This document shows, one piece after another, positions 16,065-29,383 of a stretch of 64,000 nt of DNA. This DNA is from Aureimonas phyllosphaerae (GTDB taxonomy: Bacteria; Pseudomonadota; Alphaproteobacteria; Rhizobiales; Rhizobiaceae). The notes beneath the pieces are model-generated. The model saw only the letters and a list, made by a program, of their open reading frames with translations. It was not told where the DNA came from and made no database searches. Made by a program: the position numbers and the translations under genes. Positions within the stretch are counted from its first letter, which is position 1. The number at the start of each line of letters is the position of its first letter. The DNA lies in assembly GCF_900113065.1 (NCBI RefSeq), contig NZ_FOOA01000019.1, positions 1-64,000 of the forward strand, given 5' to 3'.

Positions 16065-16766
16065 TCAGCTCGCCCGGGGGGCGGGTTTCCACACCAACAG
16101 GCCGGTGACGGGATCTCGGTCGAGCCTGCACCGGAACGCCATCAGGATGCCCGTCAGCATTGAGCGGGCGAAGAACACGTCGCCAGCTTGCAAGGGACCG
16201 CGGAGGCCCAGTCTTTCGGCGATCCGCATGATCAACTTCGGCGGCGCCGCCGGCGACGCCTCGCTGCCCACTTCCAAAGGCAGGTTCGCCAAGAGCGAGG
16301 CCTCCGCACCGGTCGCGACCCGCAGCAGCGGCCAGCCGCACGTGGCTTCGCGGATCTCGCGCTCCGTCCAAATCTCGAACGCCGCGCCCCTCAGCGCGCA
16401 TTCCAGCTCGATCCTCGTCCGCCTCCCGCAGAGCTCGGTGTCGCGGAGGAGCAAGGCGTGGGGTCGAACGGATCGGTAGACCTTCGATCCATCGGTCATG
16501 ACCGCGAGGAGGTCTGGCGTGTAACGGTGGCGGCGTCCGTCGACGGCGTCACGCCAGACGAAGGTCTCCGGCTGCGCGCGTATGGACGCGACGAACGGGT
16601 CGGCGGCCATGATCTTGAGGAGGTCCGCTCCGAGCGAACTCTCGAACGGTACGAGACCGCCTCCCTTGGGCGTCGGGACGAAACCGCGCCGGGGACGGCC
16701 GCTCCCGCGGTCGGAAGCGGAGCGTTTGGCGGACCGGATGGCCGGGCGTTGGCGGATCATGTGCAT
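16065..16766 (-). CDS. TnsA-like protein with altered nuclease motif
   Basis: Encodes 233 aa; AAAGGA lies 7 nt before the ATG. It matches the TnsA endonuclease pattern: FESSLGADLLKIMAADPFV (E42), IRAQPETFVW, RRHRYTPDLLAVMTDG (D85), then GAAFEIWTEREIR and a C-terminal winged-helix-like region (residues 145-233). In active TnsA proteins the next strand carries E-V-K or Q-x-K. Here it reads S99-V-R101-P, so the catalytic Glu/Lys pair is gone. DNA cleavage is therefore doubtful. It may instead bind a TnsC- or TnsB-like partner. It forms a probable operon with the unknown gene upstream and the TnsB-core protein downstream. Confidence 0.75.
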   Translation of the reverse strand: MHMIRQRPAIRSAKRSASDRGSGRPRRGFVPTPKGGGLVPFESSLGADLLKIMAADPFVASIRAQPETFVWRDAVDGRRHRYTPDLLAVMTDGSKVYRSVRPHALLLRDTELCGRRTRIELECALRGAAFEIWTEREIREATCGWPLLRVATGAEASLLANLPLEVGSEASPAAPPKLIMRIAERLGLRGPLQAGDVFFARSMLTGILMAFRCRLDRDPVTGLLVWKPAPRAS

Positions 16767-18797: not shown

Positions 18798-19346
18798 ATG
18801 TCGAGCAAACTTCATCGGGTCTTCGTCTCGTACGGGGATGGCGACGTCGCACGCGGCAACTCGCGCAGGGCGCTGCCCGACGTTCCGCTCGAAGGCCGCC
18901 GGATGGCGGACACTTCGCCTGCCGCGCGCCGCGTCGGACCCGCCCGGCGGCTCGCGATCGGCGGCAAGCGAACCTTCACGCCGAGAGCCAACTTCGAGAA
19001 GGCCTTCGGACGGATCACGGTCGAGAGTCTTCTGGAACTCGCGATGGCGGACCAGATGGAGATGGACGACGAGGTCGCGAACTTCCGGCCCCAGCCGGTC
19101 ACGTTCAAATGGTCTGATCATTTTCGCCGCCGAAGCTACACCCCGGACTTCGCCGTGTTCGGGACCGATGGCGGGCTTGCCTATCGGGAGGTGAAGCCGC
19201 GTGGGGTCTGGCTGCGTGACCCCACCCTGCGCGGTCGCCGTGACGCGATCGCCGAAGAATGCCGCCACCGGGGGGCGCGGTTCGAGGTCTGGGTGGATGC
19301 CGAACCCCGTCTAAACGGTCCCGTACCCAACGAGTTCGGCTTCTGA
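18798..19346 (+). CDS. tnsA: TnsA-family transposon endonuclease
   Basis: Encodes 182 aa. The restriction-endonuclease-like core is intact: ITVESLLELAMADQMEMDDE (E76), RRRSYTPDFAVFGTDG (D117) and AYREVKPRG (E131, K133). TnsA nicks the 5' ends of the element while TnsB cuts the 3' ends, giving cut-and-paste transposition. The protein is short: it lacks the long C-terminal TnsC-contact domain of Tn7 TnsA. The first 60 residues are basic and variable. The stop overlaps the tnsB start (TGATG). It is the first gene of a five-gene plus-strand unit. Confidence 0.9.
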   Translation: MSSKLHRVFVSYGDGDVARGNSRRALPDVPLEGRRMADTSPAARRVGPARRLAIGGKRTFTPRANFEKAFGRITVESLLELAMADQMEMDDEVANFRPQPVTFKWSDHFRRRSYTPDFAVFGTDGGLAYREVKPRGVWLRDPTLRGRRDAIAEECRHRGARFEVWVDAEPRLNGPVPNEFGF

Positions 19347-21712: not shown

Positions 21713-22881
21713 GCGAAGTACCGAAGAGCGAACTGTCGCCCGCGGAACACCAGGCGATGCTGTTCCAACTCGAGGGCGAGTGTCTCGACCACATGCAACT
21801 CGACAAGGCGTTGGGGGCGATCGACAGGCTGCGCAAGCGGTACACTCCCAATCCCGAGACGACGCTCGAAGCAAGGGCGCTTTTCGTCGTCGGCTACGCC
21901 GGTGCGGGCAAGAGCACCTTGCTCGCTCAGTACGAACGCAACGAGAGAATGAAGCCGGGAGCGTTCCGGAGCGACGAGGACGGCGACGTGCGGCCGGTGG
22001 TCCGACTGCAAGTGCCGAGCTCGGCGCAGAAAAGGCAGTTCGTGTCGGCCATTGTCGGAGCCTTGGGCTACAAGGCGCAAGCCGACGTCGACTCCACCGC
22101 CATCGTCCTCGAGATCGGTGATCTCTGCAGGCGTATGGGCGTACAGGTGATCCTCTTGGACGAGGCCCACGAGTTGACGAAAGGCGGTGGCAAGCGGGTC
22201 GAGGTGATCCAAGAGTTCGTCAAGTCGCTGCTGAACCAAACCGGGGTCCAGTTCGTCCTGGCCGGGCTTCCGGGCGTGCTGGATCTCCAGCCTGAGGAAC
22301 AGGTCGGACGACGCATGGCCCCTGTTTTTTACCTGGCTCCCTATGACTGGGGTACGGAAGAGGGTCGTGTAGAGTTCGCGACCCTTCTCGTCGAATTGGA
22401 GGCCAAAGTGGGCGTGCCGTTCGTCCCCTCCCTGCTCGACGATCCGGTCCTGCAGGCTAGGATGTACTACGCAACCAAGGGAAGGATCGGCCTCGTCTCG
22501 AAATACATGAGCGCGGCCTTGGACAAGGTCCTGCATGGTGAGTTGGAAAAGATCACCCCTTACGACCTGGGCGTCATCTTCGACGAGTTCCGGCCCAAGC
22601 CGATGCCAGCCATCGCGCCGGTCGAATTCGACGCGCCTCCCGTCGCGGCCGCCGTCCGCACCGTCCCGGTTGCGGGGAACCCTTTCCTCGTGGAGGTCGA
22701 CGAGTTTCGCAGGATGTGGAACTCGTGGCTCGCGGTCGGAGAGGATGGCTCGGGCGACGAGGAAACCGAGGCTGCCCCTGCAAAGCCGGACGCCACAAAG
22801 AATGATTATAAGCCGAGGAAGCGCGAGGGGCAGCGCAAGGGCACGTTCCGCGGCCCCAAGGCAGCAGATGGACGGCGTTGA
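21709..22881 (+). CDS. tnsC: TnsC/TniB-family AAA+ transposition ATPase
   Basis: Encodes 390 aa. Walker A is GYAGAGKST (residues 62-70) and Walker B is VILLDE (147-152), followed by AHELTKGGGKRVEVIQ and a sensor-like FVLAGLPG. TnsC forms ATP-dependent filaments on target DNA and links the target selector (TniQ) to the transposase; it also gives target immunity. The C-terminal 60-70 residues are Pro/Ala/Lys-rich and probably interact with TnsB. The tniQ ATG lies 14 nt inside its 3' end, so translation is coupled. Confidence 0.95.
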   Translation: MSEVPKSELSPAEHQAMLFQLEGECLDHMQLDKALGAIDRLRKRYTPNPETTLEARALFVVGYAGAGKSTLLAQYERNERMKPGAFRSDEDGDVRPVVRLQVPSSAQKRQFVSAIVGALGYKAQADVDSTAIVLEIGDLCRRMGVQVILLDEAHELTKGGGKRVEVIQEFVKSLLNQTGVQFVLAGLPGVLDLQPEEQVGRRMAPVFYLAPYDWGTEEGRVEFATLLVELEAKVGVPFVPSLLDDPVLQARMYYATKGRIGLVSKYMSAALDKVLHGELEKITPYDLGVIFDEFRPKPMPAIAPVEFDAPPVAAAVRTVPVAGNPFLVEVDEFRRMWNSWLAVGEDGSGDEETEAAPAKPDATKNDYKPRKREGQRKGTFRGPKAADGRR

Positions 22882-24739
22882 GCGGAGAAGGGCTCCGGCG
22901 CCCATCCGCCGGTTCGCGCTGCGTGTCCCGCTTGCACCGGACGAGCCCTCCTACGGCTTGATGGCACGTCTCGCCTGGCGCCACGGGCGCTTGGACGTCA
23001 GGGGGTTTGCCTCGTCCTGCGGGCTGCCGCTGAGGTCACTGCTCGCCGGCGGGGGCGTATCCAACCTCGCGTCCGCCGCCTTGGTGGATGATGAGGTGCT
23101 CCGGTTCTCGACGCCGGCCCACGACATCCGTCGGCGCATCGTGAAACTGCGCGGGGAGACCCTTCGCACGATCGACCACTCGGTGGCGACGCGTCGCTGG
23201 TGTCCGGCTTGCCTTTCGGAAGACCTCGACCTGTCGTCGTCAGGAGCTGCGATGGCCCGTCACCGCTTCTGGTGGGACGTGGCCGCCATCGAGACATGTC
23301 CGCGTCACGGATGCCGTATCGAGGATGCCTGTGCTCGATGCGGCGCCGGGGCGAATTGGGACCATGCGCCGTTGCACGCCTGCCGTTGCGGCGCGAAGCT
23401 GAACGGGGATGGGCGCCCGCAGCCCGTCGGGGCATTCTCCCGCTACCTCCACGATCGGCTCCTCGGTTTGCCGCGCCACGCCTCGCCGAACGTGGACGAC
23501 TTGGCGGTCGCCGAACTCATTCCCCTTGCCCGGCTCTTGGGGCTCGTCGAGTGTGCGGACTGGCACGCCCGTTGGCCGGATGCGGGAACCGAGGCGGACG
23601 GCGACCTCCGTGACGCGGGAATGGCCTGCCTGGAGGGCTGGCCCTTCTCGTTCCGTGCGGTGCTCAACCGAAAGGCGGTTCGCGAGCGGGGCGGCAAGCC
23701 GTCTGGAGGCGTGCTTGCGACCTACGGCTGGGTCTACGAGCAGTTCGTGTCTACCTATCCCGACGGACCCGTCGGCGACCGCCTTCGCTCCGAACTCCGG
23801 CGCCATGCCGTCGCCAACGGCGTGATGGCCGACGGAGAGGCCATGCTTGGGAAAAAGGTCGCCCGGGGCGTCACCCTCGTTGCGGCTTCGAGGTCGATCG
23901 GCAGCGACGTCGCCCGGACGAGGAGCCTGCTGGTCGCGGCGGGTCGCATGCCGCGCGGGTCGAGGCGGGGCGTGTCGAGCACCGTCGACCCCGCGGCCGT
24001 CGCGGCGCTCGCCTCGGATCGGCGCCGCAGGATCGGCGTCGCCACGGCCGCACAGCGACTGGGAATCGGCCGTCCGCAGGTCCGCTCGCTTGTCTCCTCC
24101 GGCGTTCTCGACGGCTGCCTGCTCGGCGAAGCGAACGGAAAGAAGGTCCTCGACGGCGAGAGGCTGGACGGCTTCGTTGAGAGGATCCTGCGCGACGTGG
24201 GGGAGGCCGAGGAAGGAAGCGGCCTCGTGCGGCTCGCCGGCGCCACGCGGTCGGCAAGGACAGACACCACGGCGCTCATCGCCGAACTGGCGGCCGGGCA
24301 CCTCCGTCCCGTGGCTCGGCTACCCGGTGGACGAGGTCTCGGCGCATGCCTTCTGCGGGAGAGCGATCTAGTTCCGCGTGCGGCTGAGGACACCGAGACG
24401 CTGAACCTCCAGCAGTTCGCGGGAGCCATCGGGATGCATCCGGAGGCGGTGTCTACGATGCTGCGCGAGGGGATGATCTCGGCGAGGCGCGCCGGAGCGT
24501 CGTGGACGATACCGCGGTCCGAGGTCGCGCGCTTCGAGGAGCGGTTTGTCACGGGGGCAAAGCTCGCCGTCCGCCAGGAACTGGCGCCCAGGGCGCTCAT
24601 CAACCGTCTCGCGAAGGTCGGCGTGCATCCGGTGATCGGTCCGCCCGCCTGCCGCCAGGTCGTCTACCTTCGAGGCGCCGAGGACGCGCAACTGTCCGGC
24701 AGGCGGCCAGCCATGCGATCGAGCCGATCTGGCCGCTAG
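22868..24739 (+). CDS. tniQ: TniQ-family target-site selection protein (first copy)
   Basis: Encodes 623 aa. The ATG at 22868 lies within the tnsC end; the longer frame upstream is a shadow. The TniQ domain has the entry motif APDEPSYGLMARLAWRHG and zinc-binding pairs WCPAC (C112, C115), CPRHGC (144-149), CARCG and CRCGAKL. The remaining 400 residues contain several helix-turn-helix-like blocks, e.g. VATAAQRLGIGRPQVRSLVS and LQQFAGAIGMHPEAVSTML. This is the layout of TnsD-type proteins that read a fixed attachment site. It should recruit TnsC to the target. Confidence 0.9.
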   Translation: MDGVERRRAPAPIRRFALRVPLAPDEPSYGLMARLAWRHGRLDVRGFASSCGLPLRSLLAGGGVSNLASAALVDDEVLRFSTPAHDIRRRIVKLRGETLRTIDHSVATRRWCPACLSEDLDLSSSGAAMARHRFWWDVAAIETCPRHGCRIEDACARCGAGANWDHAPLHACRCGAKLNGDGRPQPVGAFSRYLHDRLLGLPRHASPNVDDLAVAELIPLARLLGLVECADWHARWPDAGTEADGDLRDAGMACLEGWPFSFRAVLNRKAVRERGGKPSGGVLATYGWVYEQFVSTYPDGPVGDRLRSELRRHAVANGVMADGEAMLGKKVARGVTLVAASRSIGSDVARTRSLLVAAGRMPRGSRRGVSSTVDPAAVAALASDRRRRIGVATAAQRLGIGRPQVRSLVSSGVLDGCLLGEANGKKVLDGERLDGFVERILRDVGEAEEGSGLVRLAGATRSARTDTTALIAELAAGHLRPVARLPGGRGLGACLLRESDLVPRAAEDTETLNLQQFAGAIGMHPEAVSTMLREGMISARRAGASWTIPRSEVARFEERFVTGAKLAVRQELAPRALINRLAKVGVHPVIGPPACRQVVYLRGAEDAQLSGRRPAMRSSRSGR

Positions 24740-24957: not shown

Positions 24958-27306
24958 ATGCCAGACAATCTCGCGCTGCTTCCCCTTCGAGTCCGACCGC
25001 GGATCGGCGAGACGCCGCTGAGCCTGTTGGGCCGCTTGGCCTCGCGTCGGGGATCCGACGATCCGGCTCGGTTCGCCCGATCGGTGGGCCTGGACCCCGT
25101 TGCCGTGTCGCGGGGCCATCATACCGCGGAACTGTCGATCCTCTCCGGCCTGCCGGCAGCGGGCATCGCGGAATGGTCCGTCGACCAGGTGTCCGAATCC
25201 ACCGTCGTGCTGGCGGGCGAGACCCTCCGCATGAAGTCCGAGTGGTGCTGCATGGATTTCGCCGAGGCGGGTCGGCGCTACTGCGCCGAATGCCTCGAGG
25301 AGGACGCGTCGGACGGGGAAGGCGGACCGCCCGAGCAGCGCGCGTATGTCCGTGCATGGTGGGACCTGCGCTTCGTCCGCGCCTGCTCGAGGCATCGAAT
25401 CCTTCTCGAGACGCGCTGTCCGCGGCCCCAATGCCGGGCGATCGTGAAGCATTCGCATGTCCCGTCACATCGCTGCATGGTCTGCCGCGCGCCGTTCGCC
25501 GCCAAGACGCGGTCGGCATTGTCAGAGGGGGATATGGCTGCCGAGGCTTACGTCCAGGGACGCCTGGGCATCCGCGAGCGCATGTCCGTCCCCTTCCTGG
25601 ACGCGATGAGCCTGCATCAGGCGGACGAGACGATGTGGCGATTGGGCATCGTCGCGGAGATGGGCACCGAGCGTGTGAACCGCTTCGTCGAGACGTTGGG
25701 GCCTGCGGACTTCTGTCGGCTGGCCTCCCGAGGGTTGTCGGTCTGTATCGATGGCAAGCAGGGAGTCGAGCGCCTCCTGCAGAGCCTCTTCGACCGATCG
25801 GCGGGCTTCAAGAACGGCCCCTCTAAGTCGTACGGTATGCTCTTCACATGGCTCGACTCAACTCGCTTCGACGACGACACGCCCAAGCACGTCGAGATCC
25901 TCAGGGGAATCCTGCGGACGCACGCCATGTCCGAGATCCCGATGATGACGACGGACGCACTGTTCCGCCAGGACTGCTCCGGAAGCCGCTACGTGTCCAT
26001 CAAGTCCGCGTCGCTCGCTGCGGGAACGCAGCACCGGGCCTTCGTGCGGCGGGCGCTTGCAGCGGGCATGATCACGGAACGGGACGTCTCTTTAGGCAGG
26101 TTCGTCCGTGGCGACATACCGAAGATCACGTCGATCCGCACGGACCGCCTTCCGATGGGAGAAGTCGGCAAACGGCTGGGGCTGACGCAGAAGCACCGGA
26201 ACAGGATCATCGAGCTCGGCATCCTTCCGGTCGTCAGCGCTCCTCCACCAGCGGAACGCAGGTACGTCGAGGCCAACGACGTCGAGCGCTTCGCGAACCT
26301 GACGCGCCTGGACGCTCCGCTCGTCACGTTGGACGAGCGCGAACACCTGTGTCTGTTCGCGGATGAGGTCGATACCTGGCTCGCCCTGCCGGCGATCGTG
26401 GAAGGCAGCCTGGTACCCCTCGGTCCGTCGAAGGTTCGTGACCTCAAGGCGCTCGTCCTGGATCGAAGGGATTTGGAAAAGGGTGGATACCTGAAGCTCC
26501 CCAAGGAGCGTCGCGAGCGGAAACGCCAACCGCAGAAGCGAGCTCAGCGCGTGAGGGAGATCGAGAACAAGCCTAAACTTCTCAGCTCGCGCGCGACCAC
26601 GAAGCGGCTCGGGACGGCTTGGGCAAGCTTGGTCGCTCTCGTCCAGGGAGGCCTTCTTCGAAGTGTGTCGGATGGAGGGCGGATCAAGTTCGGGTTCTTG
26701 GAGAAGGACGTCGAGGAGTTCGCGGCGCGATACGTCCTCTCCAACCGTCTGCGATCGGAATACGGTCTTCCCTGGAGTGAGAGCCTGCGGTTCGATCTCG
26801 AGGCTCGTGGATCGTTCGTGCATGCGGTCGCCGGATTTGCCGACCTGTTCGTGGTCGAGCGCGGCGATGTCCAGAGGGTCCTGTCGGATGGCCTCGTCGA
26901 CCGGGTGCCTTCCGGAGGTCCGGACGCCGGGAAGTCCACCGCCTACGATGACATGGGCGACGAGGAATGGTCCGTGATCTCCCCCCTGCTGCCGACCGCA
27001 GTTCAAGGCTACGCCCGCTTGAACGACCGACGCACCGTCGACGGCATCCTGTGGCACTTGAGGACCGGGTTGCCTTGGTCCGACCTCCCCGACAGGTATG
27101 GGCCTCATTCCACGGTTCGTGCCCGCCTGACGAAATGGGACCGCGCCGGAGTTTGGGACGGAGTGCTCGCTGCGATGGCCGCCGCTCTGGCAGACCGATT
27201 CCTTCCGATAGAACGGCCCGGAGTTCAAATGTGGGGCGGCGTTCGGACGGGAAGCCGGTCTGACCTAAGGGTCGTCGCGTGGTGGAAGCCGCCAGCCCGT
27301 GGATAG
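24958..27306 (+). CDS. Second TniQ-family protein fused to an IS5-type (DUF4096-like) transposase domain
   Basis: Encodes 782 aa. The N-terminal TniQ domain has RIGETPLSLLGRLASRRG, a CAEC zinc pair, CSRHRILLETRCPRPQC and CMVC. The middle holds HTH-like blocks (MGEVGKRLGLTQKHRNRIIE; ATTKRLGTAWASLVALVQGG). From residue 666 the text changes to MGDEEWSVISPLLP, then NDRRTVDGILWHLRTGLPW, SDLPDRYGPHSTVRARLTKW and AGVWDGVL. That is the N-terminal DNA-binding region of IS5/IS402-group transposases. No DDE domain follows in any frame. The fusion is in frame without a break. It may give this copy a different target from the first TniQ. A 218-nt gap separates it from tniQ. Confidence 0.85.
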   Translation: MPDNLALLPLRVRPRIGETPLSLLGRLASRRGSDDPARFARSVGLDPVAVSRGHHTAELSILSGLPAAGIAEWSVDQVSESTVVLAGETLRMKSEWCCMDFAEAGRRYCAECLEEDASDGEGGPPEQRAYVRAWWDLRFVRACSRHRILLETRCPRPQCRAIVKHSHVPSHRCMVCRAPFAAKTRSALSEGDMAAEAYVQGRLGIRERMSVPFLDAMSLHQADETMWRLGIVAEMGTERVNRFVETLGPADFCRLASRGLSVCIDGKQGVERLLQSLFDRSAGFKNGPSKSYGMLFTWLDSTRFDDDTPKHVEILRGILRTHAMSEIPMMTTDALFRQDCSGSRYVSIKSASLAAGTQHRAFVRRALAAGMITERDVSLGRFVRGDIPKITSIRTDRLPMGEVGKRLGLTQKHRNRIIELGILPVVSAPPPAERRYVEANDVERFANLTRLDAPLVTLDEREHLCLFADEVDTWLALPAIVEGSLVPLGPSKVRDLKALVLDRRDLEKGGYLKLPKERRERKRQPQKRAQRVREIENKPKLLSSRATTKRLGTAWASLVALVQGGLLRSVSDGGRIKFGFLEKDVEEFAARYVLSNRLRSEYGLPWSESLRFDLEARGSFVHAVAGFADLFVVERGDVQRVLSDGLVDRVPSGGPDAGKSTAYDDMGDEEWSVISPLLPTAVQGYARLNDRRTVDGILWHLRTGLPWSDLPDRYGPHSTVRARLTKWDRAGVWDGVLAAMAAALADRFLPIERPGVQMWGGVRTGSRSDLRVVAWWKPPARG

Positions 27307-27534
27307 CCGGTGGTTCGTTTGGGCGGCGTCGCGTTCGGACGGCGAATGTCGTCGATCGAACGTCGGGGCCGCTCGTCGTGGCGTGCGGCGTTGCCTCGGG
27401 CCGGCTGTATCTCCCATCGCCACTGGTTGTCCGTTCGGCCCCGATGAATGGGCGGCAATAGGGTCGTTGAAGGCCTGCTCGTACGATCCCCAGGGTTCTG
27501 GCGCGCGGCCTCACTGGCCACTGCTGGAGCACGC

Positions 27535-27657
27535 TGCGGGATTTATGGGTCGGAAGGCTACGTCAATGCGGGATTTATGGGGTGGCTCTGCGGGATTTAT
27601 GGGTCGAAGTTGCCGCTAACCTATTGATTGATGCGTTTGCTCTGCGGGATTTATGGG
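27535..27657. repeat. Four 15-bp direct repeats, probable TnsB-binding sites of the element end
   Basis: TGCGGGATTTATGGG occurs at 27535-27549, 27567-27581, 27589-27603 and 27643-27657, identical in all four. The spacing is irregular (32, 22 and 54 nt start to start), like the separated sites of the Tn7 left end. The outermost copy is followed by GGCGGCGACAACA, whose reverse complement starts TGTTGTCGCC, the TGT start typical of Tn7-like ends. The chance frame through them encodes ALRDLWG repeats and is not a gene. Confidence 0.85.
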
Positions 27658-27889
27658 GGCGGCGACAACAGGCATTCAGTCCGACGGGACGTCCGCTTAC
27701 GAGAACGAAGAGGCGCCATATCCTCGGCGCGGGTGGCCTCGGCGTCGGTTCGTCACCGGTCTGCCGTTCCCAGCGGCTATTGGGGCTGTGCCTCGTTCGC
27801 ATCGAGTATCTCCGTCATCCCGACCGCGTGGCGGTATCGAACTTCTCCACCTCCCTTGCCGTTGACGCTGCCGACGTGCGCCGCGTAAG

Positions 27890-28146
27890 CAGGCTTCGAC
27901 GGTTTCCCCGCGGCGACGAGCCCGGGGGATTAAAAGGGAACACGGTGAGGACGACCCAATCGGGGCCGAAACCGTGGCTGCCCCCGCAACTGTAAGCGGA
28001 TGCCGATCATCCCCGCGCTGGTCCTCGGACGGGCGCGGCGGGCCGCTGGGTCGCCCCGGCGCCATGCCACTGCGAAGCGCCCACGGGCCGAAGCGGGAAG
28101 GCAGATGATCGGTGCGACCTCCGCGAGCCAGGAGACCTGCCGTCAG
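27890..28146 (+). promoter_or_regulatory. Cobalamin (B12) riboswitch
   Basis: It contains the class hallmarks in order: AAAAGGGAACACGGTGAGG (27932-27950), CCGAAACCGTGGCTGCCCCC then GCAACTGTAAGCGG (27967-27999, the B12 box region), GCCACTGCG (28066-28074), CGGGAAGGC (28094-28102) and GAGCCAGGAGACCTGCCGTC (28125-28144). GACGG near 27898 can pair with CCGTC at 28140-28144 to close the element. It lies about 220 nt before the binding-protein gene of an ABC importer and should shut that operon when adenosylcobalamin is plentiful. Confidence 0.95.
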
Positions 28147-28363
28147 CGATAGATCCATGACGTTCGGGCGGGGATGCCCGGAAAGGATGCCCATGACGGC
28201 TCACCCTCGGCGCGTTCGCGCCCACACTCCCCCTTTCTGCTTCCGCCCGCGAGCGTCCGCGCGCCGCTGAGGCGCCGCGCTCGTCCCGTTCTCCCATCCG
28301 GGCGACCCAGGCCGCACGCCGCGGCATGGCGAAGCCGCGCCCATTCCCATCAGGAACCCGTCG

Positions 28364-29383
28364 ATGACATCCTACCGCTGCCCCGCCGCCCTTGGCCTCC
28401 TCGCTGTCGTCCTCTCCGCAGGCTCGGCCATCGCGGCCCCGACGCAGTACCCGCTGGAGCTGGAGAACTGCGGCCGTACGCTCCGCTTCGAGAAGGCGCC
28501 TTCGCGCACCGTCTCGATCGGCCAGTCCACCACCGAGATCCTCTACCTGCTTGGCCTGTCGGAGAAGGTCGCGGGAACCGCTCTCTGGGTCGGCCCGGTC
28601 CTGCCGGGCTACGAGGAGGCGAACGCGAAGGTGAAGCGCTTGGCCGACAACGATCCGAGCTTCGAGAGCGTCGTCGCAGAGCGCCCCGACCTCGTCACCA
28701 CGCAGTTCGAATGGCAGGTCGGGCCGCAGGGTGTCGTGGCGACCCCCGAGCAGTTCCATGAGCTCGGCATCCCTGTCTACACCTCGCCCGCCGACTGCAA
28801 GGGCAAGGACAACTCCGGCGGCGGCGACGGCACGCGCACGGCCCGCTTCATGATGGACCTCGTCTACCAGGAGGTCGAGGACCTTGCCCGCATCTTCGAC
28901 GTCCAGGACCGGGGGGCGGCGCTGGTGACCGACCTCAAGGCGCGCGAGACGGCGGCCAAGGCCAAGATCGCCGGCCTGAAGGCTGACACTTCGGCGGTGT
29001 TCTGGTTCTCCTCGGCCGAACTCGACATCGACCCTTACGTCGCCGGGCAGAGCGGCGCGCCGGGCTACATCATGTCCCTCCTCGGGGTGCGGAACGTCAT
29101 CGACAGCCAGGAGGAATGGCCGACGGTCGGCTGGGAGACGATCGCCCGGGCGAACCCGACGGTGATCGTCGCCGGCAGGATGGATCGTCGCCGCTTCCCG
29201 GCCGACGACATCGCGGTGAAGCTCCAGTTCCTGCGCACCGACCCGGTCGCCAGCCTGATGCCCGCGGTGCACGAAGGCCGCGTCGTCGAGATGGACGCCC
29301 AGGCGATGAACCCGACGATCCGCACCATCGACGGCATCGAGGTGCTGGCCGACGCGCTCGAGAAGGCCGGCCTCGCCCGGTGA
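28364..29383 (+). CDS. btuF: Periplasmic cobalamin-type substrate-binding protein (BtuF/FecB family)
   Basis: Encodes 339 aa with a signal peptide (CPAALGLLAVVLSAGSAIAA) and AGGAA 8 nt before the ATG. It has the class III binding-protein layout: RTVSIGQSTTEILYLLGLSE in the first lobe, ERPDLVTTQFEW, a long linker helix, and a second lobe (GYIMSLLGVRNVIDSQEEWP). The riboswitch upstream supports B12 or another corrinoid as ligand; siderophore or heme binders share the fold. Two cysteines (ENCGRTL and SPADCKG) may pair. Its stop overlaps the permease start. Confidence 0.85.
   Translation: MTSYRCPAALGLLAVVLSAGSAIAAPTQYPLELENCGRTLRFEKAPSRTVSIGQSTTEILYLLGLSEKVAGTALWVGPVLPGYEEANAKVKRLADNDPSFESVVAERPDLVTTQFEWQVGPQGVVATPEQFHELGIPVYTSPADCKGKDNSGGGDGTRTARFMMDLVYQEVEDLARIFDVQDRGAALVTDLKARETAAKAKIAGLKADTSAVFWFSSAELDIDPYVAGQSGAPGYIMSLLGVRNVIDSQEEWPTVGWETIARANPTVIVAGRMDRRRFPADDIAVKLQFLRTDPVASLMPAVHEGRVVEMDAQAMNPTIRTIDGIEVLADALEKAGLAR

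Follow-up and report, generated by a model that had tools for sequence, protein, structure and literature searches.

TniQ proteins and the TniQ2 fusion

When Tn7-like elements switch targets, it is the DNA-binding part of TniQ that changes. The available parts of PMC10293859 describe TniQ/TnsD proteins as modular, with 998 loci carrying dual TniQ-TnsD, and report one natural fusion of TniQ to TnsF, an inactive derivative of a tyrosine recombinase. The available parts of PMC11406308 state that TniQ proteins acquired different DNA-binding domains, named in the legend of its Figure 4 as TnsD, AcrR, CI, HA, HTH, and XRE, and that some I-F3 CRISPR-associated transposons (CASTs) have a TnsD targeting parE. 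Here we analyzed a Tn7-like transposon in Aureimonas phyllosphaerae, within positions 1 to 64,000 of contig NZ_FOOA01000019.1; this whole stretch of 64,000 nucleotides is called the window below. The last gene of the transposon, tniQ2, encodes a TniQ protein that continues in frame into a domain of IS5-family insertion sequence (IS) transposases.

TniQ2 resembles TnsD of Tn7 and the long TniQ/TnsD selectors in its N-terminal TniQ domain, its long C-terminal extension (782 residues, with TniQ at 9-150), its tnsABC-type neighbours, and the presence of two TniQ proteins. It differs from these selectors, as far as the sources describe them, in its last domain, which is the OrfA domain of the IS5 family. 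TnsF of Tn6022, for which a TniQ fusion has been reported, is also a recombinase without catalysis recruited as a target selector. TnsF is of tyrosine recombinase origin in the parts of the sources available, whereas the tail of TniQ2 comes from a DDE transposase of the IS5 family, from its DNA-binding part. As for the parE-targeting TnsD of I-F3 CASTs, ends of the present transposon family are found after a gene of the same kind, parE and gyrB being paralogues, but the site is gyrB and not the parE named in the source.

The sequence-only reading of the window had supposed this arrangement to be undescribed. Other DNA-binding domains on TniQ are known. The available parts of PMC10293859 and PMC11406308 make no mention of one from an IS transposase, and no paper combining TniQ and DUF4096 came up in a full-text literature search. 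With an IS transposase part that lacks catalysis, the known DNA-binding modules would gain a further source that is widespread and highly diverse. Its capture resembles that of TnsF, for which an inactive tyrosine recombinase was recruited.

We favour, with about even confidence, the explanation that the tail of TniQ2 is a catalytically dead but retained DNA-binding module of a TnsD-like selector, obtained by one capture. TniQ2 would select targets in the manner of TnsD for a tnsA-tniA-tniB-tniQ1-tniQ2 transposon. The OrfA half of an IS869-like element of the IS5 family would have been joined in frame behind the C-terminal region of TniQ2 in an ancestor of this Aureimonas lineage, and OrfB and the catalytic function would have been lost. 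The fused domain may still bind DNA and add a contact to the target, while the TniQ domain would recruit TniB/TnsC. The fusion is shared by three homologues that have diverged from each other, its domain is strongly conserved, and OrfB was not found.

Origin of the C-terminal tail

Two domains in one open frame of TniQ2 exceed their Pfam cut-offs: TniQ (PF06527, residues 9-150, E 6.7e-12, 46.7 bits, cut-off 27) and DUF4096 (PF13340, residues 667-736, E 1.4e-22, 80.1 bits, cut-off 34.3). The in-frame joining of TniQ to an IS5-type N-terminal domain is thus real, and the fused gene is indeed the second tniQ copy, as had been read; the first one also contains PF06527 (52.5 bits). Residues C109, C112, C143, and H146 of the TniQ domain, as well as C154, C159, C173, and C176 directly past it, are invariant in four aligned sequences. 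The predicted structure of the fused domain has four helices, with blocks at a predicted local distance difference test (pLDDT) score of 71-88. Its NCBIfam match is to the IS5 family with 82 bits, below the cut-off of 110, which is expected because only a part of the transposase is present.

The IS-like part had been placed at residues 666-742. The domain is present there, but the homology is longer and reaches residue 780, nearly the end of OrfA. The OrfA frames of IS elements from 21 genomes of the genus (own genome included) match from residues ~650-664 to 774-780 with 36-42% identity. Best among the matches listed are OrfA proteins from plasmids, with 44-45% identity over residues 665-780; the tail is therefore nearly a whole OrfA. 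The closest IS elements listed are unannotated or labelled "IS5 family" (44.8%), and one is an IS869-family element (44.0%). The plasmid search also counted one record in the 60-80% identity band, outside the matches listed. These closest elements are presumably of the IS427 group of IS5, not of IS402. Of the label IS5/IS402 group given earlier, the family is kept and IS402 would be dropped. The capture of OrfA is old, or the donor is unsampled.

In elements of this kind, OrfA and OrfB are joined by frameshifting, the DUF4096 part serves DNA binding, and the catalytic residues begin with the Asp of the MIDSS motif. TniQ2 shares with the IS869-like elements the homology to OrfA, and it differs from them in the later part: OrfA reads MIDSS...GKKGG there and the fusion reads PIERP...GSRSD, with Glu at the position of the MIDSS Asp. 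A tblastn search of 27000-28400 with one OrfB (L085) found no OrfB/DDE remnant 3' of tniQ2 (best E 0.059, on the minus strand). With the Glu replacement and no OrfB similarity in this interval, no IS5-family catalytic DDE domain was found, in agreement with the earlier reading that none follows downstream.

When eight IS869-like elements were compared with 26400-27700 by blastn, the matches were confined to 26959-27185 (68-78% identity), plus one 13-bp match on the minus strand. Neither this comparison nor inspection by eye revealed a recognisable IS leader or terminal repeat at the junction, where a diverged donor could have other ends. By an ungapped projection, the IS tip would fall at about 26857-26868 (residues 633-637), not far from residue 642, at which the homology to the unfused relative ends. 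Of the columns conserved among 27 IS domains from genus genomes, the fused domain keeps 9/12 at the 90% level and 22/31 at the 70% level.

Conservation of the fusion

The homologue search found two further fused proteins, P0001 (92% identity, from ENA) and P0002 (89%, A. phyllosphaerae). Both are 782 residues long and contain both domains in the same frame, which rules out a frame error as the source of the fusion. Because two relatives keep it, a reused part is likelier than debris. The counts of variable sites among the three proteins are 6/150 in residues 1-150, 32/250 in 151-400, 60/242 in 401-642, 1/22 in 643-664, 3/78 in 665-742, and 5/40 in 743-782. In these proteins the fused domain is about as conserved as the TniQ core, unlike the stretch just upstream. 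Given the rate of residues 1-642, the binomial probability of so low a count in 665-742 is 0.039 (window and P0001), 0.0004 (window and P0002), and 0.022 (P0001 and P0002), the three pairwise tests not being independent of each other. A decayed IS unique to this genome, the other outcome feared for the fusion, is ruled out by P0001 and P0002 and by the conservation of the domain at the level of the TniQ core.

Residues 401-642 (26158-26883), ahead of the fused domain, are the fastest-changing part of the protein, as if target contacts diversify there.

The GC content at codon positions 1-3 is 0.676/0.539/0.794 in codons 641-742 and 0.666/0.486/0.802 in codons 1-640. The former is close to the gene body and shows the pattern of a used gene. 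The last 40 codons show 0.725/0.625/0.600.

Several points weigh against the retained DNA-binding module. Conservation was compared at the protein level only, and recombination is possible. The three proteins align gap-free across the junction; they therefore do not represent several independent homologues, the support which had been hoped for, and apparently derive from one capture event, judging from the alignment.

An unfused relative is present in G215, a TniQ protein of 664 residues that shows 34% identity over residues 6-640 and has a different tail past the position of residue 642. A shorter TniQ relative in G211 shows 30% identity over residues 3-378. DUF4096 was found in no other TniQ frame among the 63 loci examined. 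With the own genome included, the TniQ part is matched in 18/199 genomes of the family and 26/397 of the order, and tniA in 12/21 genomes of the genus and 119/394 of the family, no tniA match listed being above 41% except that of the window itself. The fusion has thus been seen in a single small lineage.

The strongest rival, somewhat unlikely in our judgement, is a passive tail: a piece of OrfA became the 3' end of tniQ2 by accident and is tolerated without a role, its low divergence being due to exchange between elements or to chance. The apparently single event is in line with this, as are residues 743-782 with their weak codon pattern and 5/40 variable sites, and the 34% relative manages without the fused domain. 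The contrast between 3/78 variable sites in 665-742 and 60/242 just upstream, in homologues that are 8-11% apart overall, argues against it, as does the codon pattern of a used gene in 641-742.

Transposon ends and insertion sites

It is rather improbable, though less so than the narrower versions below, that the domain is an exapted end-recognition domain acting as a homing module. TniQ2 would then read a short CATAAA-type site, in IS ends or in its own repeats, by an undescribed route of targeting or self-recognition. The lead comes from nine IS869-like left ends (six of the twenty plasmid hits listed and three of four genus loci) with C[CT]CATAA close to the tip; CATAA starts 10-11 bp inside the tip in the eight for which the distance was measured. 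The end repeats of the transposon read CCCATAAATCCCGC inwards, with CATAA 12 bp inside the tip. This likeness was seen after the fact, in ends picked by that word, and is taken as a hypothesis only.

In one version, the domain binds the transposon's own ends, bridging the donor end and the target or modulating the access of the transposase. One point in favour is the shared CATAA; another is that, with a 12-column profile, the four repeats come out at ranks 4, 5, 10, and 11 over both strands of the window. The comparison is post hoc, however; CATAA is found in only 3/8 IS right ends, and profiles of 14 and 24 columns rank the repeats 106 or lower. CATAAA is also present in an unrelated array past gyrB in G079, and therefore it may be common in such ends. 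We consider own-end binding quite unlikely.

The other version is that of the sequence-only reading, in which recognition of IS ends by the domain would bring the transposon to IS elements or their scars. In its favour, the domain was taken from an IS transposase, where it serves DNA binding. The domain is just 44-45% identical to the listed OrfA, however, and the insertion sites lend the idea no support. Right ends of this family were located at three sites, two after gyrB and one, in the window, ahead of a cobalamin riboswitch. In the sequence covered, a DUF4096 IS is next to none of them (0/3, with 262 bp covered beyond gyrB at the G214 site). Such an IS was found in 0/7 orthologous riboswitch loci and in 1/15 loci downstream of gyrB (262 to 15,753 bp covered), where it is 8.6 kb off. 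We consider steering to IS ends very unlikely.

Least probable of all is a role mainly in protein-protein contact (dimerisation, or contact with TniB or TniQ1), which would fit the low divergence and has nothing specific in its favour, while most of the columns kept belong to a family used for DNA binding.

The exact 14-bp end repeat is present in 2/21 genus genomes. On contig 12 of the own genome (L127:11392-11512), a second array has its tip 174 bp past the gyrB stop. In G214 (L206:1-262), the tip TGTCGCC is 9 bp past the gyrB stop. A short TniA gene follows gyrB at 5.3 kb in the own genome, at 5.9 kb in G213, and at 8.1 kb in G215, and is possibly the relic of an old element. The unfused TniQ2 relative of G215 is 2.7 kb past gyrB. 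Judging from these ends and TniA/TniQ genes, the gyrB 3' end resembles a homing site; it appears to be an attachment site for Tn7-like elements in the genus. The TniQ2 type would fit the gyrB site, judging from the single 34% relative. The window copy is away from gyrB, and its right flank is a cobalamin riboswitch region common to seven relatives from about 27860 on.

The short TniA-like genes are at L127:5478-6473, L196, and L082:11671-12612; the G215 copy shares 75% identity with the copy of the own genome and 77% with that of G213. The G079 array (L208) is a triple array of TGTTGCGCA about 20 bp past gyrB.

Genes and neighbouring features

The features are listed in Table 1. The tniA product scores below the Pfam cut-offs for rve (24.7 of 32.6 bits) and Mu-transpos_C (15.2 of 21.7 bits); its tentative assignment as TnsB/TniA agrees with the order of the genes and with G211, in which a 34% relative is located next to relatives of tnsA, tniB, and tniQ. 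At the right end, there are four repeats with an ACA tip. No left end was found within the window, hence the 5-bp target duplication of Tn7-like transposons is unreadable.

Table 1. Features of the transposon and its right flank in the window
Feature	Position	Strand	Basis or remark
tnsA-like endonuclease gene	18798..19346	+	PF08722, 28.4 bits, cut-off 26.5
tniA/tnsB, predicted transposase, 817 aa	19259..21712	+	Open frame and Pfam; start codon not settled
tniB/tnsC, AAA+ ATPase, 390 aa	21709..22881	+	TniB PF05621, 81.3 bits, cut-off 22.4
tniQ1, TniQ plus HTH_17	22880..24739	+	PF06527; start codon not settled
tniQ2, 782 aa: TniQ domain, long middle region, fused DUF4096 domain	24958..27306	+	Open frame and Pfam
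TniQ domain of tniQ2 (residues 9-150)	24982..25407	+	Pfam
Junction/linker, about residues 643-665	26884..26952	+	Homology to unfused relative stops near residue 642
Putatively captured IS5-family DUF4096 DNA-binding domain, residues 667-736	26956..27165	+	Pfam
Remainder of OrfA, residues 743-782, diverged	27184..27303	+	Glu for MIDSS Asp; lysine run lost; weak codon-position GC pattern
Four TGCGGGATTTATGGG copies at the right end, presumably bound by the transposase	27535..27657	+	Repeat array
Right tip, ...GGCGACA (TGTCGCC inwards)	27658..27667	+	Inferred by comparison with two gyrB-side copies
Cobalamin riboswitch, host sequence flanking the insertion	27883..28158	+	Right of the window copy

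The open reading frames 3' of the cobalamin riboswitch were read by eye as a set of binding protein and ABC transporter. The TniQ1-type element of G211 is also at most 3 kb from a riboswitch (yybP-ykoY, L084:2914-3085, minus strand) in the same direction, possibly by chance. A second TnsA-like gene (16065-16766, minus strand; PF08722, 28.2 bits) is in a stretch 75% identical to G213:C1:728091-728950 and is probably part of another Tn7-like element.
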